From assembly GCA_902563335.1 (NCBI GenBank), contig CACEWU010000006.1:1-64000 (forward strand): DNA of 64,000 nucleotides. The letters run 5' to 3'. Every line of letters begins with the position of its first letter. The first letter of the stretch is position 1. The translations under genes were made by a program, and so were the position numbers. Of this stretch, positions 6,559 to 54,224 are shown one piece after another. The stretch comes from an uncultured Prochlorococcus sp. (lineage in GTDB: Bacteria; Cyanobacteriota; Cyanobacteriia; PCC-6307; Cyanobiaceae). Under the pieces are notes generated by a model. The model had not been told where the DNA came from. It made no database searches and worked only from the letters and a program-made list of their open reading frames with translations.

Positions 6559-7406
6559 ACATCTTTCAAAAATTGTTTTGGAATCAGGTTTTCCCTTTCT
6601 TGAGAGTTTCTGGTACAGGGGCTCGTGAATTTCTCCATGGACAAACAACTGCTGAACTTCTTGGGGTTAATGAAGGAGTGATAGTTGCTGGTTGCTGGCT
6701 TTCAGCAACTGGACGATTAAGAGCTTTGTTAGAAATGAGAGTTGATCTAGAAGGTGTAGATGTAGTTGTTCTTGCTGGAGATGTTGATGACTTGGTAAAA
6801 GGTTTTGATCAGGTTATTTTCCCTGCTGACAAGGTAAGACTTGAACCTTTAAAAGAAATTCGCAGAGTTCAGATCCTTGAGAATCAAGTCTTTAGTAATG
6901 CTAATACAATTAAATGGTTAAGGGATGACGATTCTTTGCCTGATTGTTTCGCTTCTCTTAAACCTGCAAGCCCTGATGAATTTGAAATTTGGAGATTAAA
7001 AACAGGCCTCCCAATAGGGTCTGGTGAGATTAATGGTGAGACAAATCCCTTTGAATTGGGTTTGTCTAATTTGGTTGATTTAAAAAAAGGTTGTTATTTA
7101 GGTCAAGAGACAATGGCAAAACTAGCAGTGGCAGGTAAATTAAAACAGCAACTAAGATATTGGGAGGCCGATGGTTTTATAGAAGAAGGAACGATATTGC
7201 AAACCTCTTTGTCTACTTCAGTGGAAAATAGAAATGCAGGTGTAGTTACTTCTGCGTTGAACAATCAAGGCTTGGGGAGGAGTATTGGACTTGCAATCGT
7301 ACGTCGCCATGCTTTATCAGAAGAGGAACTTTTTATCTCAGATGATTCTAAGAAAGTTAGGTTGAGTGTCCCAGATAGTTTTGTCCCCCCATCTTTTGGG
7401 AATTAA
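6555..7406 (+). CDS. ygfZ: YgfZ/GcvT-like folate-binding protein
   Basis: The aminomethyltransferase-like fold shows the signature [14 protein letters not shown], whose cysteine defines the YgfZ group, plus an N-terminal segment [12 protein letters not shown] typical of it. The family uses tetrahydrofolate and helps maintain certain iron-sulfur enzymes; it is not the glycine-cleavage T protein. At 283 residues its length fits. It starts inside the pyrE stop codon. A link to pyrimidine synthesis is not implied by the family; the coupling probably reflects shared transcription. Confidence 0.85.
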
Positions 7407-7409
7407 ATA

Positions 7410-8873
7410 TTAACTATCTTGTTTCAAAAGCCATTCTGCAACTTTCCATGTAGCACAACAATCGTCTCGGTTGTACTGAAAGATCCACCTCAAAGAATTT
7501 ATATGCCCTCGTTTTTTGAACCCATTTCTTTTCCACTTTCTCCACCAGAGTAGTGACTTTGCTCCGTCGCAGTTAATTTGACTCCAATAGAAATTTAGCC
7601 AATTAGCAACTGTTTTGAGGCCATAGTTATTTAATGGTAAACGCCAATACTTACGGACGCGAGAATGAACATCAATTAAACGATATCGTAGTTCATTTAG
7701 TTCTATTTCATCAGCACCTTGGCGCTTAGCGATTCCATATAGTATTTGAAATTCTGTCTCTCCATAATGAAGAATTGGGTATTGTTTATATAAGGATATT
7801 TTTCTCTTCAACCTTTGCCAGGTTAGTTCCTCGTTGTGTTCAGGTATTACTAGAATTGGTCGGTAACTTTTTGCTTTTAAACTCCATTCCCCTTTTGCAT
7901 TTCTATCAACTTGCATAAATCCATGTAAGAAGTTTTCGCCTGCATCTGGATCTGATTCAATATCATAGAGCAAAACTCCGGGTGCTTTATCTAACTCTGG
8001 CAAGGATTTGGTTGGATCTAACCTTTCTACTAGCCCATAACATTGGGCCTTGGCTTGAGCAACAATCTCATTGGAAATAATTTGGTGTTGTCCTCCAAGC
8101 GCTTTTAATTGCATAGACAGTTTAACTGGATTAAATGCAGCCAATTCTTCTATAGTATTAATGCCTAAATTTTGTAGAAGTTGTTTACGGCTTCCTCCTA
8201 CTCCGCTGACTTCAGTTAGCTCCCCATTCTTCGCAGCTTCCGAATTACATATACTTCTCCAAGAGCATAATGAGCATTTACGTCGATCTAAAGTTATTGA
8301 TGGAGCGTATTTTTTGTTTAAATCTTTAGTTAATTTAGCAAGAGATTCAATTAGCTCTTTTTGTAGCTTTTGATTTAGTTTAACCTTTTCTTTTTCAAGA
8401 CCATAATTTGCTATAGAAATAGCAAGACCTTCCCTTATTGGTGCTTGTTGCAGAGGCTCTAGCAATAGACTTGAAAATGCTAAGGTCAGTCTATGTTCGC
8501 GAGTTAATCTTTTCCCATTTCGAGCGATTACGGGCCTATAAGTAAAATTTCCCCAGATACTTTTACCTCCAATTTTTTCTAGTAGTGGGGGATAAGCTTC
8601 AAGTAATTGTCCTGTCGATGTAATTTTTTTGAGACGAAGTCCCATTACTCCATTCTCTCCTTGAACACATGCCTCTATTCCTTTACCTGGTTTGTGTGGC
8701 ATTAAGGCAGCAAAACTTCTGTATTGGTGATCTAACTGAAGAGTTCGGTGTGCTGTCCAAAGTCTTTTCTCTCTATCCTCATAGCAATCAAGCCAAGCTT
8801 TCCTGCGACAACGAACCCAACTTTGCAGTAGTCGGTCAGTAATTAATTTGACGCCTAAAGGATTGTCAACCAT
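7410..8873 (-). CDS. TM0106-type RecB-like nuclease
   Basis: Resembles the TM0106 group of predicted RecB-family nucleases. The N-terminal segment SWVRCRRKAWLDCYED and a later CSLCSWRSIC could supply four cysteines for a Cas4-like iron-sulfur cluster. Next comes a helix-hairpin-helix-like patch (VSGVGGSRKQLLQNLGI). The C-terminal half resembles an RNase H-fold exonuclease, with YDIESDPD and, near the end, YNRDDCCATWKVAEWL. Residues fit a DNA-processing enzyme, but the role is not established. It is convergent with ygfZ (3-base gap). No CRISPR array or cas gene is near, so a CRISPR role is not supported. Confidence 0.8.
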   Translation of the reverse strand: MVDNPLGVKLITDRLLQSWVRCRRKAWLDCYEDREKRLWTAHRTLQLDHQYRSFAALMPHKPGKGIEACVQGENGVMGLRLKKITSTGQLLEAYPPLLEKIGGKSIWGNFTYRPVIARNGKRLTREHRLTLAFSSLLLEPLQQAPIREGLAISIANYGLEKEKVKLNQKLQKELIESLAKLTKDLNKKYAPSITLDRRKCSLCSWRSICNSEAAKNGELTEVSGVGGSRKQLLQNLGINTIEELAAFNPVKLSMQLKALGGQHQIISNEIVAQAKAQCYGLVERLDPTKSLPELDKAPGVLLYDIESDPDAGENFLHGFMQVDRNAKGEWSLKAKSYRPILVIPEHNEELTWQRLKRKISLYKQYPILHYGETEFQILYGIAKRQGADEIELNELRYRLIDVHSRVRKYWRLPLNNYGLKTVANWLNFYWSQINCDGAKSLLWWRKWKRNGFKKRGHINSLRWIFQYNRDDCCATWKVAEWLLKQDS

Positions 8874-8926
8874 CAGCCGACGTTACGGTGTCTTTCTGCT
8901 AGATCAAAATCATCTAATTATTCTCC

Positions 8927-10387
8927 ATGGAGTCAAATTCACTGCCTTTAGTTCCATCGCCTATTCATTTCGGCACAGATGGTTGGCGTGGAGTGCTTGG
9001 AGTTGATTTCACTATTGAAAGGTTGTTAGTGGTAGCAACTGCAGCTGCGCAAGAGTTGTTATATCGGGCGCCCGTTGGCATTAAGAGCCGAAAAGTGATC
9101 ATTGGCTATGACCGTCGATTTTTGGCACAGGAAATGGCTGAAGCGATAGCTTCAGCCGTAAGAGGATGTGAGCTAGAGCCGTTGCTGACTGAAACACCAG
9201 TCCCTACTCCAGCATGTAGTTGGTCAGTAGTTCAGCGTCAGACGTTAGGGGCACTAGTGGTCACGGCTAGTCATAATCCACCAGAGTGGCTTGGGCTCAA
9301 AATTAAAGGCCCCTTCGGAGGTTCAGTTGAAGGTGACTTCACTGAGGCTGTTGAGAATAGGCTTGCGGTGGGAGGGATTACCCCTCCTATAGAGAGGTTG
9401 AATCAGCGATTTGATTGCAGAAAAGAGCACCTTGATGGTTTAGCTAGACAATTCAACCTTCCTCAGTTGGCCGAAAAGCTTAAACAAATTGGTCTAAAAG
9501 TTATTGTCGATTCTATGCACGGTTCTGCCGCAGGTTGTGTAGGTGAACTGCTTAAGGAAGGAGGACCTGACCTTGTAGAGGAAATTCGTGTTGAGCGTGA
9601 CCCTCTTTTTGGTGGACATCCTCCTGAACCCTTGAGACCATATGTGAGTGAATTGATTAGTTCTGTTAAGGCGTCTAGTCAGTTTGGCAAACCAGCAATT
9701 GGACTTGTTTTTGATGGAGATGGAGATCGTATAGCGGCTGTTGATGAATTTGGTCGTTTTTGCAGTACTCAGCTTTTAATGCCTTTGCTTATTGATCACT
9801 TGGTACGCGTTAGGCAATTACCTGGCTGTGTCCTTAAAACAGTAAGTGGTTCTGACCTTATGGCTTTAGTCTCTGAAGATTTAGGACGTGAAGTGCTTGA
9901 ACTCCCTGTTGGTTTTAAGTACATCGCTGCTGAAATGCTTTCAGGGAATGTTCTTATAGGAGGAGAAGAATCAGGTGGGATGGGTTTTGGCATGCATTTG
10001 CCAGAAAGAGATGCATTGTTTGCTGCTTTGCTTGTTTTAGAAGCCTTGACAGAAGGTGGTAAACCTTTGGGGGCTCGTTTGGACTCGATTAAACAACGTT
10101 TTGGAAATAGTAGTTATGAACGCATAGATCTTCGGCTGCCAAATATGGCTTCGAGAAGACGTTTGGAGGACTTGTTGACACAGGATCCACCATCATTAGT
10201 TGCAGATCATCCAGTACAAGAAGTTATTCGAACTGATGGTGTGAAATTACGATTGGGTAAAAATCATTGGTTGATGTTGCGATTTTCAGGAACTGAGCCA
10301 CTTTTAAGGATTTATTGCGAAGCTCCAAGTGAAGATTTAGTTAAAACAAACCTTGAATGGGCTAAAGAACTTGCAAAATCTCACTGA
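8927..10387 (+). CDS. phosphoglucomutase/phosphomannomutase family enzyme
   Basis: Alpha-D-phosphohexomutase. The active-site serine lies in VVTASHNPPEW (about residue 110), the metal-binding loop is VFDGDGDRIAAVDE, the sugar-binding loop is GGEESGGMG, and the phosphate loop near the C-terminus is RFSGTEPLLRIYCE. At 486 residues it has the four-domain length. The FGTDGWRG opening is typical of the group. It interconverts the 1- and 6-phosphates of glucose or mannose and so can feed the UDP-sugar genes elsewhere in this window; preference between the sugars cannot be read. It is followed after 14 bases by rdgB. Confidence 0.9.
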   Translation: MESNSLPLVPSPIHFGTDGWRGVLGVDFTIERLLVVATAAAQELLYRAPVGIKSRKVIIGYDRRFLAQEMAEAIASAVRGCELEPLLTETPVPTPACSWSVVQRQTLGALVVTASHNPPEWLGLKIKGPFGGSVEGDFTEAVENRLAVGGITPPIERLNQRFDCRKEHLDGLARQFNLPQLAEKLKQIGLKVIVDSMHGSAAGCVGELLKEGGPDLVEEIRVERDPLFGGHPPEPLRPYVSELISSVKASSQFGKPAIGLVFDGDGDRIAAVDEFGRFCSTQLLMPLLIDHLVRVRQLPGCVLKTVSGSDLMALVSEDLGREVLELPVGFKYIAAEMLSGNVLIGGEESGGMGFGMHLPERDALFAALLVLEALTEGGKPLGARLDSIKQRFGNSSYERIDLRLPNMASRRRLEDLLTQDPPSLVADHPVQEVIRTDGVKLRLGKNHWLMLRFSGTEPLLRIYCEAPSEDLVKTNLEWAKELAKSH

Positions 10388-46504: not shown

Positions 46505-47375
<871 letters not shown>

Positions 47376-47397: not shown

Positions 47398-47898
<501 letters not shown>

Positions 47899-47996: not shown

Positions 47997-48623
47997 ATGG
48001 AAAAGGAAATTTGCAAAAATAATGTATCGGATCTTGAGCAATTGTTTGTTGATCTAAGTCATCCAAATCCGAATATAAATGAACAAGCATGTTTGAGAAT
48101 GCTCTCTGCTTGGCCAAGCGAGTCTATGGCACGATTGATTAAAAATTTGGCTAATGAAGATGTAGCTTTAAGACGGAAATCAGTAAAAGCCTTAGGCTTA
48201 TTTGGACATATTGCATTGCCTCATGTGGTGGATTTATTTCTTCAAAATGAGAACAAAATAGTGCGAACTAGTTGCTTGAAGGTTCTTGTGAAGATTGCCG
48301 CTGCTTCATGTGAGGACTCATTCCCTGCCGAAGTATTTAAAGCTATAGAAATTGCACTTAAAGATGATTCTCCTGAAATAACACTTTCAGTTGTCTCACT
48401 TCTTAGGCAGATGGGCAAGGATGGTTTGCCTTTGTTAATTCGAATAGCTAAAGATGAAGATATCCTTAGGTCCACAGCAGCAATTTCAGCACTTAGTGAA
48501 TTAAATAGTCCCATTATTCAGACTTGCTTAAGTGAGCTTGTTAATGATTTGTCTAGAGACGAGATGGTGCGTTTGGCTGCTAATGAATCATTAAAAGCTT
48601 TAGCTGGTGGGGAAATTATATGA
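47997..48623 (+). CDS. cpeZ: CpeZ-type HEAT-repeat bilin lyase/chaperone
   Basis: 208 residues, made of HEAT-like repeats (LIKNLANEDVALRRKSVKAL; HIALPHVVDLFLQ; GLPLLIRIAKDEDILRSTAA). Length and position after cpeBA match CpeZ, which in other cyanobacteria works with CpeY to attach phycoerythrobilin to the alpha subunit and to help folding. The assignment to CpeZ rather than another E/F-type lyase rests on length, order and overall look. It is convergent with the 296-residue HEAT gene, with only 8 bases between stops. Confidence 0.78.
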   Translation: MEKEICKNNVSDLEQLFVDLSHPNPNINEQACLRMLSAWPSESMARLIKNLANEDVALRRKSVKALGLFGHIALPHVVDLFLQNENKIVRTSCLKVLVKIAAASCEDSFPAEVFKAIEIALKDDSPEITLSVVSLLRQMGKDGLPLLIRIAKDEDILRSTAAISALSELNSPIIQTCLSELVNDLSRDEMVRLAANESLKALAGGEII

Positions 48624-48631
48624 ATAATATT

Positions 48632-49522
48632 TTAATCTTTTGTTTGCTCAACTTCATTGTCCTTAGACAATTGATTAATCGCTAGCTTTATGACGTTAAT
48701 CACTTCTATATCTTTTTCTTTTGATTTTCTTGATAGAAGATGATTTATAGCAGTAGTTGATTTTAACTGCATTAAAGATAGAGCAGCATTTTTACGCACT
48801 TGGTTGCTTGAATCATATAATCGTTTAATTAGAAGTGGTTGGGCCCAATCATGTTCATTTAAACGACCTATCAATTTTGTCGCTTCTGCTCTGACCTCGC
48901 TAGAGTTATCTTCTAAAGCATTGAGTAGAATAAAACGTGCTTCTTTATCATTTAAAGAGTGAATCTGCTCGCCAAGCGCTGCAATAGCTGCTGCTCTAAC
49001 AGGAGAGTGTTTTGATTGGGCTGCTTTTCGAAGGGCGGCTGGAGCCTCGGCACCAACAAATGCAAGCCCCCATGAAGCTAGGCCGCATTGCATAGAGGTG
49101 CTTTGGGGATTTGTCAGTACTTGGATTAAAAGGGTTACAGCTTCTTCTCCGAAGATTGCCATTGCTCCTACGGAAGAGCATTGAACCACTGTATCTGGAT
49201 CATTGATCAAGGCTGTTAGCAGATCTGGTAATGCACTTGGATCCCCTACCAATTTGAGGGCTTTAGCTGCTGCCCTTCTTACAATGACATTTGTGTGAGA
49301 AAGGAGTGCATCTCTAAGTCCAGCTACAGCTGGTTGTCCAACCATTCCAAGGCCTTCTGCAAAGGTTCGTCTAATGAGTCCTCTGCTATCTCCAAGACCA
49401 GCAATCATTAGTTCAACCTTCTTGTTATCGGCTATAGGCATTTCCCCGGAACGCATTCGCTCTTTTAGCTCATTGGCAAGTTCAGTTGCTTCTTCCTCGC
49501 TCAATTTGATTTCATTGGCCAA
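48632..49522 (-). CDS. HEAT-repeat bilin lyase-like protein (MpeX/MpeU/CpeF group)
   Basis: 296 residues with about six HEAT repeats, rich in alanine: LIRRTFAEGLGMVGQPAVAGL, NVIVRRAAAKALKLVGDPSALP and similar. Size and repeats fit the MpeU/CpeF/MpeX group seen in PE clusters; CpeF-type proteins attach the doubly linked bilin at beta Cys50/Cys61, a natural leftover job here, because no other gene in this cluster is assigned to it. That is inference. Start TTG 49522; antisense to the rest of the lyase genes but next to cpeZ. Confidence 0.75.
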   Translation of the reverse strand: MANEIKLSEEEATELANELKERMRSGEMPIADNKKVELMIAGLGDSRGLIRRTFAEGLGMVGQPAVAGLRDALLSHTNVIVRRAAAKALKLVGDPSALPDLLTALINDPDTVVQCSSVGAMAIFGEEAVTLLIQVLTNPQSTSMQCGLASWGLAFVGAEAPAALRKAAQSKHSPVRAAAIAALGEQIHSLNDKEARFILLNALEDNSSEVRAEATKLIGRLNEHDWAQPLLIKRLYDSSNQVRKNAALSLMQLKSTTAINHLLSRKSKEKDIEVINVIKLAINQLSKDNEVEQTKD

Positions 49523-49815: not shown

Positions 49816-51141
49816 GTGAAAACAAGTCATTTTGATAATCTTCCATCTTTAACTAAGAAAGAGGCTCTACATATACTTTCAACGCCAAGTTCTCAATTAG
49901 AGCTTTCAAGTGATTATTACAAAGCGGTCTTTCATTTATATAAATATCCTGGACCTGATACAGAGAAGGTTCTTATAGACTTGCTGAAATCTGATTCAAA
50001 AGAACAAGCCGTTGTCATAGCAAAGAGAAAGGCGGTTGAGGTTCTTGCTCGAACTGGCTGCATTAATGCGATTCCTATTATTGGAAAATGTTTATGTAGC
50101 GATGATATTTATCTTGTAGAGAATGCTGCTTTGGCTCTGCCAGAACTGGGATGTAAAGACTCTGAATACCAAAACAAGATTGGATCTCTTCTTGAAGATC
50201 CAAAGCAAAACAGGAGGGCTCTTATTCAAAGTCTTTCGAAAATGGGAGCAGTATCAGAACTTTCTAGAATCAAACTTTTGGTGAATGACTACTCTTTGTC
50301 TCCTGATATTAGGGGGGCTTCAATTGCAGCAATCGCTAGATTAGAGAATAAATATGATCAGTTGAGCCAGCTGGAAGAATATCTCCTACTTCCTAATCAA
50401 AACTATAGACACTGTGCGGTGCAAGATATTATTGATGTGGGTAAAGTAGAATTACTTCCTGCGGTTTTAAGGTCTCCAGTTGCACCGTCTTTTCGTATAC
50501 GCGCATTAAATAATCTTTGGAAAGAAGAAATAGAAATTAGAAATAACCTTAAGCTTTTTAGCATTTTAGATAAATTGATCAAAGATGACCCTAATGATTT
50601 GGATATTGTTCATTGCTATGAAACTCATCCAAGTACTCAATTCTTAGTCGAGGAATTATTTCAAACCGACTTTAGTAGAGCCTATCTAGCATTAAGGACT
50701 CTTTATTTAAGAGAAAAAAAAGATATTTGGCTTAACCTAGCTTCTTTTCTAGATAGGATTAATAAAGACTATGGTGCCCTGTATTTTGTTAGTATTTTAT
50801 TTAGACTAGTGGATGCCTGGGACGATTTTCAGGTGAGCAAAATTGAAGAAATCATGCAATCTTGTTTAGATAGTAAATGGCCAGACTTTATGAAATTTAG
50901 ACCTTCTGCTATTTTAACGTTGATGGAGCTTAACTCTAAAAAATATCAGGAATGTATCGGGGAATGGTTGAATGAAGAGAAAACCCCATTTTGGGTTTGT
51001 CGCTACTCTGCATTAATGTCATTAGAGAATCAATTTAAAGGTGAGTTATTGGAATCTAATAGTAAACATATAGCGGTTGCAAAAAATGATAGCAACCGCT
51101 TTGTTAGAGCTAAAGCGAAAAAAATTTTATTAGAATTGTAA
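49816..51141 (+). CDS. cpeY: CpeY-type phycoerythrobilin lyase
   Basis: 441 residues, HEAT-repeat E/F-type lyase: KAVFHLYKYPGPDTEKVLID at the start, then AVVIAKRKAVEVLARTGCINA, LVENAALALPELG, and C-terminal KTPFWVCRYSALMSLENQF. The GPDTEKVLIDLL and NRFVRAKAKK repeats match CpeY, which attaches phycoerythrobilin to the alpha Cys82 site in other cyanobacteria (Cys73 here). The start is GTG 49816. It ends 18 bases before the stop of the convergent cpeT. Confidence 0.87.
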   Translation: MKTSHFDNLPSLTKKEALHILSTPSSQLELSSDYYKAVFHLYKYPGPDTEKVLIDLLKSDSKEQAVVIAKRKAVEVLARTGCINAIPIIGKCLCSDDIYLVENAALALPELGCKDSEYQNKIGSLLEDPKQNRRALIQSLSKMGAVSELSRIKLLVNDYSLSPDIRGASIAAIARLENKYDQLSQLEEYLLLPNQNYRHCAVQDIIDVGKVELLPAVLRSPVAPSFRIRALNNLWKEEIEIRNNLKLFSILDKLIKDDPNDLDIVHCYETHPSTQFLVEELFQTDFSRAYLALRTLYLREKKDIWLNLASFLDRINKDYGALYFVSILFRLVDAWDDFQVSKIEEIMQSCLDSKWPDFMKFRPSAILTLMELNSKKYQECIGEWLNEEKTPFWVCRYSALMSLENQFKGELLESNSKHIAVAKNDSNRFVRAKAKKILLEL

Positions 51142-51159: not shown

Positions 51160-51777
51160 TCATAAAAATTTAGTCCAGTTCTCATTAATTATTTCAATTG
51201 AGCTAATCACTTTTTCGAATTCTAGAGGACCATTTTCAGAGCCCCAAATAAGATGATCTGTGTTTACCTCATAACCTTGATCTAAACTTTTCCACTTCTG
51301 ATCATTGAACTCTACATTGCTTTTTAGATAAGTTTTTTTGTCGTCTCTATAGACTATACATTTCTTTCCTGGCTCTACTTCTCCTTGGTAGTTCCCTGAA
51401 GAATTCTCTTTAAAATTCATTGCACAACCTTGCCTCGGTTCAAGATTCACGTTCTGAAGAACAGATAAAAGGCTGGAATTAAAACCAGCACCAGCAATCT
51501 TGATTGGATCCTTGATAAAAAAATTGCTCATTATTATACTTTTATCTTTGACTGAAATTCCATGAACTGCTTGTCTATAGGGTGACCATGGAGAGTAATC
51601 AAAGCTTTGCTCAGAATAAAAGCCAGGTCCTTGCAATATTGACCAAGGTAATGGTTGGAAGTAAATATTTATATGAGCAAATGCCCTTGGTTTTTTTTGA
51701 GATTGTTGCTTATTGCTATAGTGACCAGCAAGTATTCTTGCAAATCTCAAAATAGTATTTTTATCTATTTTATCCAT
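51160..51777 (-). CDS. cpeT: CpeT-type chromophore lyase
   Basis: 205 residues. CpcT/CpeT-family marks: RFARILAGHYSNKQQS near the N-terminus, the segment HINIYFQPLPWSILQGPGFYSEQSF, and GCAMNFKENSSGNYQGEVEPGKKC. The family attaches bilin to a beta-subunit cysteine near the C-terminus (Cys163 in this CpeB). It follows cpeS after 14 bases on the same strand. Confidence 0.92.
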   Translation of the reverse strand: MDKIDKNTILRFARILAGHYSNKQQSQKKPRAFAHINIYFQPLPWSILQGPGFYSEQSFDYSPWSPYRQAVHGISVKDKSIIMSNFFIKDPIKIAGAGFNSSLLSVLQNVNLEPRQGCAMNFKENSSGNYQGEVEPGKKCIVYRDDKKTYLKSNVEFNDQKWKSLDQGYEVNTDHLIWGSENGPLEFEKVISSIEIINENWTKFL

Positions 51778-51791
51778 CTTATATTTCTATA

Positions 51792-52325
51792 TTAAGAATT
51801 TAATCGACGGACTTCTGAGGCAAATGATGTTTGAAGAATACCCGAACCTTTAGAGGTGCGGAGAATCGACGAACGACATCTTAAATTTGAATTGGCAAAC
51901 CAAATACGCTCTTCTGCAATAGTGTTATGATATTTGGTACTTAGAGTTAATGTTCCGTCAGAAAGAAATGAATAATTTGTTAGTGCTTTTATAGCTTCTG
52001 CATATCCAAGACTCCTTAAAATTATACCTTTTGTTGGTGTGCATGGAAAAGGTATTAAAATAGAAATGCCAGATGCAACACTGGATTCATCATTAGGTTC
52101 CCAATCACTTTCTGCCTCCCATTCTATTTTAAAAGGAGATGTAGGTTGATTTCTTATATTTGTATTTGATTCTAAAAGATCTAGAACACTAGGATCTTCT
52201 AGACTTAATAATTCGATTTTAATTTTGCTGAGAACTTGCTCAAATTGTTGGAAAGCAAGAGAATGACCGCTTCTCATTGAACGCCATTCTCCTTGGCTCT
52301 GAGCAATAAACTGCTCAATATCCAT
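51792..52325 (-). CDS. cpeS: CpeS-type chromophore lyase
   Basis: 177 residues beginning MDIEQFIAQSQGEWRSMRSGHSL, which is the CpcS/CpeS opening; family segments SDWEPND and TYHNTIAEERIWFANSNLRCRSS-like KYHNTIAEERIWFANSNLR are present. These lyases bind bilin to the Cys82 site of beta subunits. Its ATG overlaps the stop of the 58-residue gene upstream by one base (TAATG), so the two are translationally coupled. Confidence 0.93.
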   Translation of the reverse strand: MDIEQFIAQSQGEWRSMRSGHSLAFQQFEQVLSKIKIELLSLEDPSVLDLLESNTNIRNQPTSPFKIEWEAESDWEPNDESSVASGISILIPFPCTPTKGIILRSLGYAEAIKALTNYSFLSDGTLTLSTKYHNTIAEERIWFANSNLRCRSSILRTSKGSGILQTSFASEVRRLNS

Positions 52326-52501
52326 TAAGTTTCGGCTGATTCTTCGTTTTCTTTCTCTGTTTCATTGTTATTGGCTTTTTGAATCATGCGAACCATAGAA
52401 TCGACCATCATTGACATAGCCATTGGAACTTTTTTCCCAGATGGAGTCTTAGAAGATTGATCACCCGGTCTTTCATTGGAAGGTGGGCGAAACAGAGACA
52501 T
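52325..52501 (-). CDS. 58-residue protein coupled to cpeS
   Basis: A small open frame, start ATG 52501, stop TAA at 52325-52327. The N-terminus is MSLFRPPSNERPGDQSSKT, followed by a methionine-rich stretch, VPMAMSMMVDSMVRMIQKAN, and an acidic tail. It shares one base with the cpeS start (TAATG), which strongly implies it is translated with cpeS. No membrane segment or catalytic motif. A role in phycoerythrin maturation is suggested only by position. I do not recognise a named family. Confidence 0.78.
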   Translation of the reverse strand: MSLFRPPSNERPGDQSSKTPSGKKVPMAMSMMVDSMVRMIQKANNNETEKENEESAET

Positions 52502-52551: not shown

Positions 52552-52641
52552 TATTAGCTTAATTGATATATGCATATTACTAGTAGTTATTTAGCATGAG
52601 TTCATCTCTATTTTCAGAAAGTTTAGAATTGATAGATTTTG

Positions 52642-53589
52642 TTAAATTTGTTTTTCGAGATCAACTTGAGAGTTGATTTTTTCCTCTTCTTCATTAATGA
52701 GTTGTTGTGAATACAGAGGGATTTTAATTGTTTCAGAAGTCCCTTTGGCGAGTATTTTCATTAATAAGCTTTTGCCTCCAGATTTTTCTGAGGAGTTGAT
52801 TCTTGTATGTAGAGCATTGTCGCTTGTAGCGAAACTTCTAGTCATATGGGAGAAATTATTGAAACTAGAGGTTTGTAGACCAAGAGGTGAGTTCCAACAG
52901 CGTGGATATGGAACAGTATTTGCTCCAAAAACTTCCTCATATTCATCTGAGTCAATAAGTGAATCGATATGACTTTCAAAGCCTTCATTAAAAATTCGTT
53001 TTATATGAAAGATCACTTCTTCTTGATGATTTGGACATCTACCAAGAAGATGTTTAAAATTTAATTCGATACACCTTTGTTGATTTACTGATTCAAAATA
53101 ATGTGATTTGTAAAATGGAGATTTAGCTAGGTTCCTTATGAATTCCTGGATAGTTATATCGCCATTCCTTAGTCGCCTTTCTAGGTCAATTGGTCGCTCA
53201 CTTTCCATAGCATGAAAGTTACCATAAATCTGTCGATATGCGGCTTCAATTACTATCTCCAGAGTAGCATCATCATGCGGTGAGTATTCTTGATAAGTAA
53301 AAGGAGTTGCTCGTGCGAATTTAGTTCCAATTGGGGCGGACAATTTTAAATTTTGCTGTCGCTTAAAGGCTCTAATTATTTGATTCTCATTAAGTGGGGC
53401 ATCTTGCCCTGGGCTATTTAAATAACTTGCACTGAACAACTCCGGTTGACCTGGCATTGAGCCTGCTTTTGAATGAAGTATGTAGCTCATCGTTGGACTT
53501 TGGGCTACTCGGGATTTACCATAAGAAATTGGTGAGTCATTCTTGCTCAGGGCTCCAAATCTTAGTGCAGCACTAGGAATGAACGACAT
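52642..53589 (-). CDS. ppeC: PE-associated linker polypeptide (PBS linker domain)
   Basis: 315 residues. The phycobilisome-linker domain spans about 95-240: TLEIVIEAAYRQIYGNFHAM, then SERPIDLERRLRNGDITIQEFIRNLAKSPFYKSHYF in two parts, and FESHIDSLIDSDEYEEVFG. Residues 1-90 have the usual flexible leader with ALRFGALSKND. The C-terminal part is serine/asparagine rich. It resembles the PpeC linker reported in PE-containing Prochlorococcus, which have no phycobilisome. It is first in the minus-strand run linker, small gene, cpeS, cpeT. Confidence 0.88.
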   Translation of the reverse strand: MSFIPSAALRFGALSKNDSPISYGKSRVAQSPTMSYILHSKAGSMPGQPELFSASYLNSPGQDAPLNENQIIRAFKRQQNLKLSAPIGTKFARATPFTYQEYSPHDDATLEIVIEAAYRQIYGNFHAMESERPIDLERRLRNGDITIQEFIRNLAKSPFYKSHYFESVNQQRCIELNFKHLLGRCPNHQEEVIFHIKRIFNEGFESHIDSLIDSDEYEEVFGANTVPYPRCWNSPLGLQTSSFNNFSHMTRSFATSDNALHTRINSSEKSGGKSLLMKILAKGTSETIKIPLYSQQLINEEEEKINSQVDLEKQI

Positions 53590-53780: not shown

Positions 53781-54224
53781 TTATGTGCTTAATTTTCTTA
53801 TTGGAAGATCAATTGCAGGGGAAGCACTTAACCACCCATGTCTATCTAGGTAAAAAGCCCATGTAATTTCAGTGCCTAACCCTGGACAATGTTCGGAGGC
53901 AATTTGGGTGAGACCAGATTTAACTCCTAGTAGTTGAAGCATTTTTATTGCTTCTATAGGGCTCTTGGAGAGGAATGGTCGAATAGCAGCTCCAACTACC
54001 CAAGTTAGATTAGTGTCCTTGAATTCACAGTCCTCCTTTTCACATGCTAGTAGAAGGTTATATGGCTCTGAATATCTGTTAAGGGTTTCTTTCCATAATC
54101 GAATATTTTCTAATTTCAGATCTATTTTAAAAATTCCATGTAATGAATGGATCTTTTGCTCTGGGTTGTTCTCTGCTGTTTTAAGGAGAGCTTTTATTTT
54201 GTTCTCAGCTGATACTGATTCCAT
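53781..54224 (-). CDS. unassigned 147-residue protein at the edge of the PE cluster
   Basis: Start ATG 54224. The N-terminal half is helical and charged (ENKIKALLKTAENNPEQKI). The C-terminal half contains CEKEDCEFKD, GVKSGLTQIASEHCPGLGTE and ITWAFYLDRHGWLSASPAID, with three cysteines and a histidine. No membrane helix or signal peptide. It is in the same direction as the linker gene but separated by about 190 bases. I do not recognise the family. The DxHG segment and its position make a PE-related role possible, nothing more. Confidence 0.72.
   Translation of the reverse strand: MESVSAENKIKALLKTAENNPEQKIHSLHGIFKIDLKLENIRLWKETLNRYSEPYNLLLACEKEDCEFKDTNLTWVVGAAIRPFLSKSPIEAIKMLQLLGVKSGLTQIASEHCPGLGTEITWAFYLDRHGWLSASPAIDLPIRKLST

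Follow-up and report, generated by a model that had tools for sequence, protein, structure and literature searches.

Unk6, a small conserved protein encoded before cpeS in picocyanobacteria, read as a short hendecad helix with a possible accessory role in phycoerythrin maturation

Introduction

Phycoerythrin persists in high-light Prochlorococcus though nearly the whole phycobilisome has been discarded, and the reason for its retention is a standing question. Among the accessory proteins of the phycoerythrin system, CpeZ is a HEAT-repeat type protein. The S-type lyase CpeS must act first on CpeB, which it renders soluble, and the CpeS of Synechococcus RS9916 attaches phycoerythrobilin to CpeB in Escherichia coli (PMC7948978). 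The parts of that report that deal with the RS9916 work in E. coli do not name Unk6 among the proteins co-expressed (PMC7948978), and it is therefore seemingly not required for catalysis there.

Small unexplained proteins are a feature of phycoerythrin gene regions. They include Unk7, Unk8 and Unk10, to which the relevant passages of the papers assign a Nif11-type domain, and Unk6, the product of a gene described by Six et al. in 2007 as 57-61 aa long, located upstream of cpeS, conserved in phycoerythrin-containing Synechococcus and Prochlorococcus and, in the passages concerned with it, given no assigned function (PMC2246261). According to the same account, every Prochlorococcus has unk6 placed upstream of cpeS, and Table 4 of that paper gives RCC307 as lacking it (PMC2246261).

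Here we describe unk6 in a Prochlorococcus contig and its relatives in other genomes. It is a real, well-conserved small gene, already known since its naming in 2007. Our best guess for its product, to which we would give a probability of about 0.45, is a short self-assembling or docking hendecad helix that acts as an accessory in the maturation of CpeS and CpeB. Added to the 2007 description are a three-gene remnant of the phycoerythrin locus in high-light strains, the hendecad reading, a long form that replaces the cpeS-linked gene in one clade, and relatives linked to sufE.

Results and Discussion

The unk6 gene and its neighborhood

The window, a stretch of 64,000 nucleotides of contig CACEWU010000006.1 from an uncultured Prochlorococcus sp., encodes the following proteins around unk6.

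46821..47375, plus strand: cpeB, phycoerythrin beta subunit (NCBIfam NF058508, above cut-off)
47431..47898, plus strand: cpeA, phycoerythrin alpha subunit (NCBIfam NF058506, above cut-off)
47997-48623: 208-aa HEAT protein
48632-49522: 296-aa HEAT-repeat protein
51160..51777, minus strand: cpeT, 205 aa, downstream of cpeS (Pfam CpeT, 8e-56)
51792..52325, minus strand: cpeS, S-type phycoerythrobilin lyase, 177 aa (Pfam CpeS PF09367, E 2e-56)
52325..52501, minus strand: unk6, 58 aa, coding sequence including the stop
52642..53589, minus strand: phycobilisome rod-type linker, 315 aa, upstream of unk6 (Pfam PF00427, 3.6e-46)

By size, we take the 296-aa HEAT protein to be more likely a CpeF/MpeV-type lyase, and the 208-aa protein is presumably the likelier CpeZ. 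The frame at 49816-51141 (plus strand) is CpeY-like, a diverged CpeY that scores 264 bits against an NCBIfam cut-off of 600. Upstream of the linker, at 53781-54224 (minus strand), lies a 147-aa open reading frame (ORF) that has no Pfam match and a 49% identical relative at another locus (L145); by size, we presume that it is perhaps unk12.

The start codon of unk6 is the ATG at 52501 and its stop ends at 52325, where the final A of TAA is also the A of the ATG of the cpeS ORF, 52325..51792. The 58-residue frame, its seven methionines, its acidic C-terminal tail and the TAATG common to the two genes had all been pointed out in an earlier note made from the sequence alone, which gave no strand, and the translation agrees with that account; the remark that size cut-offs would miss such a frame is upheld for Unk6. 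The same note knew no name for the gene, and here it is superseded: this is the unk6 of Six et al., a name that we give because the protein falls within the size range of their description and its gene occupies the same position, directly upstream of cpeS and here overlapping it by 1 nt (PMC2246261). In loci titled Synechococcus as well as in those titled Prochlorococcus, relatives of Unk6 occupy the same place before cpeS. A whole-word search for unk6 in open-licence papers yielded, among the matches listed, only Six et al. as relevant by title, and the literature search found no suitable paper with transcript or proteome evidence for the gene.

No matches to Unk6 were detected in Pfam, NCBIfam or PHROGs. 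Three candidate identities, an S-type lyase of the CpeS/CpcS kind, a small phycobilisome linker and a Nif11-type small protein, were rejected on the corresponding Pfam domains, none of which the protein contains (0 Pfam families); in having no Pfam match it differs from Unk7, Unk8 and Unk10. Profile A4, built from the Unk6 alignment of the same name, matched none of the solved structures, and a search of viral contigs revealed no phage copies.

Distribution and sufE-linked relatives

With the 58-aa protein as query, matches (E ≤ 0.1) were obtained in 237 of 400 genomes of the family, and at the level of the order profile A4 matched 287 of 299, the sufE-linked relatives described below included. 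When the profile was applied to genomes drawn from the class, 36 of 291 matched, all in the window's own family, and there were no matches in the other 255; Unk6, the long form and the sufE-linked proteins have so far been found only in this group of marine and freshwater picocyanobacteria. We sought cpeS in 70 genomes, counting as true cpeS a match with E below 1e-30, and found it in 42 of 59 genus representatives. A cpeS-linked Unk6 is present in 35 of these 42, 33 of them identified by profile or sequence search and two (G018 and G025) by eye, as divergent Unk6 proteins encoded beside cpeS. The seven cpeS-bearing representatives without a linked Unk6 are G008, G024, G027, G041, G048, G055 and G056.

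Profile A4 also matches genomes that lack phycoerythrin, over the helix only. The matching proteins correspond to stretches of ~45-60 aa, a length given without fixed start codons, that are flanked by ruvC/folate ligase on one side and by a secreted protein or sufE on the other, these neighbors being named by recognized similarity, and their core is close to DALSMMVSSMVxMVQAGKSSDSRW. They were seen in phycoerythrin-lacking and some other Synechococcus (L179, at 6759-7064; L180, L181, L183-L194 and L199), and the two that were tested gave no significant Pfam match. A profile of the sufE-linked protein matched 50 of 75 genomes. Where phycoerythrin is lacking it picked up the sufE-linked form, and in most of the Prochlorococcus genus representatives among the genomes searched its only match is the cpeS-linked Unk6. 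Profile-profile comparison of the two proteins gave a probability of 96.6 and an E value of 6.5e-10 over 22 columns. The sufE-linked protein is likely homologous to Unk6, but the shared stretch is short (~20 residues) and convergence is possible.

The existence of these sufE-linked relatives speaks against an exclusive role in phycoerythrin. They would fit a general small adaptor of picocyanobacteria, that is, a helix family docking on a housekeeping partner, of which the cpeS-linked copy is merely co-regulated with phycoerythrin. The profile-profile result speaks for such an adaptor, as does the recovery of cpeS-linked Unk6 by a sufE-linked profile that contains no Unk6 rows. The sufE-linked form is present in genomes that lack a true cpeS, among them G005, G009, G023, G030 and G046. 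The ruvC-sufE locus is without the protein in 12 of the 13 genomes reached via sufE, all of them Prochlorococcus or marine Synechococcus as judged from genome size and gene content, G024 being the one that has it. On the other hand, about 20 shared residues could reflect convergence on a short helix, and five high-light genomes devoid of cpeS and cpeB contain no detectable member of the family at all, an absence that is unexpected for a housekeeping role and favors a role in phycoerythrin. We regard the general adaptor as possible, if on the doubtful side, and prefer the accessory role at the CpeS step.

A three-gene remnant in high-light Prochlorococcus

In high-light-type Prochlorococcus (g18), the best genomes of which measure 1.6-1.8 Mb, Unk6 is kept in 103 of 108 genomes, as counted by hand from the profile A4 search. 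The five genomes without it (G263, G373, G387, G427 and G428) are also without CpeS and CpeB, and the g18 controls in the same searches were positive for CpeS in 5/5 and for CpeB in 12/12. Within g18, unk6, cpeS and cpeB are thus kept or lost as a unit; because the three genes are adjacent, their co-loss may represent one deletion and not independent events. The genes flanking the deletion junction of G263 were not found in the 100 kb examined. With cpeB, cpeS and unk6 all missing, phycoerythrin has apparently been lost entirely from the five genomes.

CpeT and the 296-aa HEAT protein, the two proteins sought genome-wide, are absent from all 20 g18 genomes tested, and both are present in all 10 comparison genomes from outside g18 (four other genera). 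For the 208-aa protein, CpeA, CpeY and the linker, the search covered five g18 loci, each 12-19 kb long, and of the nine phycoerythrin-locus proteins only cpeB and cpeS were found there. What is left of the g18 phycoerythrin locus is cpeB, cpeS and unk6, which is new here. If the minimal set that is kept consists of the beta subunit, its lyase and Unk6, then Unk6 would be an overlooked third component of the remnant. In one high-light-type locus (L148), cpeB and cpeS run toward each other, with a 17-nt overlap of their 3′ ends (8211-8738 and 8722-9273).

This pattern also bears on the idea that Unk6 is a structural component of the phycobilisome or phycoerythrin, such as a tiny linker or cap. 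The position of unk6 in the phycoerythrin operon, adjoining a rod-linker gene, would suit it, but Unk6 is kept in high-light Prochlorococcus, where the search of the five 12-19 kb loci revealed no linker and no cpeA, and this, together with the lack of a Pfam or NCBIfam match, makes a structural role improbable.

Linkage to cpeS and selection on the protein

In all 48 related loci, which were found by Unk6 sequence, cpeS lies directly downstream of Unk6 on the same strand, so the small frame before cpeS is conserved in other strains. With the cpeS start estimated from the alignment, the two genes overlap by 11 nt in 38 of the 48 loci, by 4 nt in two and by 1 nt in one, and are separated by 9-16 nt in seven. 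The earlier note had made much of a tight one-base coupling; it exists in the window but is a minority arrangement, 11 nt being usual. The broader claim that the small protein is tied to cpeS stands, given its position, the overlap and, in high-light-type Prochlorococcus, the fate that it shares with cpeS and cpeB, all three being retained or all three missing.

The constant presence of cpeS downstream and the codon substitution ratios show that the ORF did not arise by chance. For residues 1-41, dN/dS ranged from 0 to 0.19, and mostly from 0.01 to 0.15, in 29 pairs within groups of close relatives, and among 52 distinct sequences the pooled pN/pS was 0.28 for residues 1-24 versus 0.11 for residues 25-41, with pS near saturation. 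The Unk6 protein is under strong purifying selection. Conservation of the C-terminal DEN is not evidence about Unk6, because the DNA of the 11-nt overlap also encodes the start of CpeS.

A frame so placed might matter mainly as a translational or leader device that brings ribosomes to the cpeS start, and the overlap or close spacing at 48/48 loci is consistent with this, as is the location of the DEN end on CpeS-start DNA where the overlap is 11 nt. Selection at the protein level across residues 1-41, strongest in the helix, and conservation of the same domain in copies unlinked to cpeS render such a device quite improbable.

Production of the small protein in a fixed ratio with CpeS, which had been read from the coupling, cannot be general, since in all five genomes of the g56 clade that were inspected the frame in front of cpeS is gone and only an unlinked, longer form is present, and since a homologous small protein is encoded beside sufE in phycoerythrin-lacking Synechococcus. 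That CpeS is the partner of Unk6, as we infer, is plausible but unproven. For a bilin carrier, another role suggested in the earlier note, the present results offer no sign of bilin binding.

A hendecad helix and its long form

Two segments of Unk6 stand out in the alignments.

52478..52501, minus strand: N-terminal motif M-x-x-x-R-P-P-S, residues 1-8, shared by the Unk6 of Prochlorococcus and that of Synechococcus (alignment A6)
52367..52426, minus strand: central helical region (residues 26-45, PMAMSMMVDSMVRMIQKANN) bearing the stripe A28-M32-M36-M39-A43

The best explanation of the protein's plan is an RPPS motif followed by a flexible linker, a predicted Met-rich amphipathic hendecad helix and a variable acidic tail. 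For Unk6, AF2 predicted a single helix at residues 31-45 with low confidence (mean pLDDT 65), and for a cpeS-linked copy of the long form (L035) it predicted a single unbroken helix at residues 27-102 with a mean pLDDT of 82. Alignment A4, which comprises 17 divergent rows, has four invariant columns, M1, A28, M32 and M39. Of the 11 registers compared over 75 distinct 21-mers, 25/28/32/36/39/43 ranks first in hydrophobicity (0.87), and the lowest entropy falls on a neighboring register that has 28/32/39/43 in common with it. The 21-mer rows were chosen by a motif demanding Met at 32 and 39, so invariance at these positions is by construction and alignment A4 is relied on; the motif missed two rows, and in L042, which is one of the two, the helix has a 4-residue deletion.

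In the long form, the stripe continues as A28-M32-M36-M39-A43-L47-V50-A54-L58-V61 in unbroken 4-4-3 hendecad spacing. Because the conserved stripe of Unk6 is in register with these 11-residue repeats, we favor reading Unk6 as a short hendecad helix for assembly or docking, and its family shares the 11-residue hydrophobic periodicity of hendecad coiled coils. The stalk of the ATP synthase b subunit is a hendecad helix with the same periodicity, and the long form weakly matches ATP-synt_B, but there is no significant homology and Unk6 barely exceeds one hendecad. High-light copies keep A28, M32, M36, M39 and A43 and replace M27 by S and M29 by K, which we read as a putative assembly or docking stripe that has been preserved beside a second face that has been lost.

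The long form consists of the Unk6 domain, with its helix extended by 11-residue repeats (DLERVDQRARA) to a total of ~86-119 aa, and is encoded by some Prochlorococcus. Its profile matched 22 of 201 genomes over at least 84 of 108 positions, and both forms occur in six genomes (G001, G014, G052, G064, G177 and G189). The long form is mostly unlinked to cpeS, and the neighbors of the unlinked copies vary. Unlinked long-form proteins with 33-bp tandem repeats and no constant neighbors were observed at L079, L081-L083 and L085-L089. The repeat in L079 amounts to 5.5 copies (94%). At L034 and L035 the repeats are carried by the cpeS-linked copy itself, with 4.5 copies (73%) in L035. A TPSGK segment is common to the Unk6 of Prochlorococcus and most long forms and is absent from Synechococcus Unk6, which suggests that the long form arose within Prochlorococcus.

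In g56, no Unk6 frame was present at cpeS in the five loci inspected, and all nine genomes matched by the long-form profile have the long form only, a state that contradicts, for this clade, the 2007 statement on the position of unk6 (PMC2246261). The hendecad-repeat fusion form is a finding added to the 2007 description, and neither it nor the sufE-linked relatives are mentioned in the passages of that paper that treat the gene (PMC2246261).

Another quite improbable alternative takes the long form for a membrane- or surface-binding amphipathic helix of apolipoprotein-like 11-mers and Unk6 for its short membrane-touching version. The long form does match the apolipoprotein domain of Pfam (E 0.0014, far below the curated cut-off) and ApoA-I (E 0.025), both weakly, but matches of this kind arise from charged helical repeats, and those to ATP synthase subunit b and keratin are equally weak.

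A possible role at the CpeS step

In the accessory role that we prefer, the Unk6 helix would self-associate into a small coiled coil or dock on a helical partner, and the protein would serve as an adaptor or chaperone-like accessory at the CpeS step, in which phycoerythrobilin is attached to Cys82 of the beta subunit; it might, for instance, hold CpeB or the CpeS-CpeB pair. Through co-translation, Unk6 and CpeS would be produced together. The second face of the helix (M27, M29) may contact something that high-light strains have lost, whether CpeA, CpeT, linkers or other lyases. Unk6 would thereby resemble the chaperone-like accessories of the CpeZ type, as the sources describe them, in aiding the chromophorylation of CpeB by CpeS, the same step; it differs from them in being a 58-residue, predicted single helix with no HEAT match. 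Weighing against an accessory role is the retention of cpeS without a linked Unk6 in g56 (5/5), G024, G008 and G048.

A wider proposal, speculative and in our judgment unlikely to hold as a whole, is that Unk6, the long form and the sufE-linked protein constitute one family of self-assembling mini-helix adaptors that serve S-type lyases, namely CpeS in strains with phycoerythrin and CpcS in those with phycocyanin only. In Prochlorococcus the helix would have grown longer as its own last hendecad was duplicated in tandem, and the long form would have replaced the cpeS-linked gene in one clade. With the long form and the sufE-linked relatives, there are three natural variants for finding the partner.

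DNA upstream of unk6

A consensus scan of the intergenic region in the window found no sigma-70-type promoter and no terminator, and the palindrome TCCCATCGATGGGA, ~30 nt before the start, was dropped as a candidate because relatives do not conserve it. One other element was noted.

52590..52597, minus strand: ATGCTAAA, possible promoter element, ~96 nt before the unk6 start (pattern chosen post hoc)

The corresponding pattern, ATGCT(A/G)(A/G)A, is a lead only, having been picked after viewing the same sequences in which it was counted: it occurs in 11 of 62 distinct upstream stretches versus 1.5 expected, with a maximum of five in 200 shuffles. Most occurrences lie ~90-120 nt before the start, and ten other loci have the pattern at a distance similar to that in the window.
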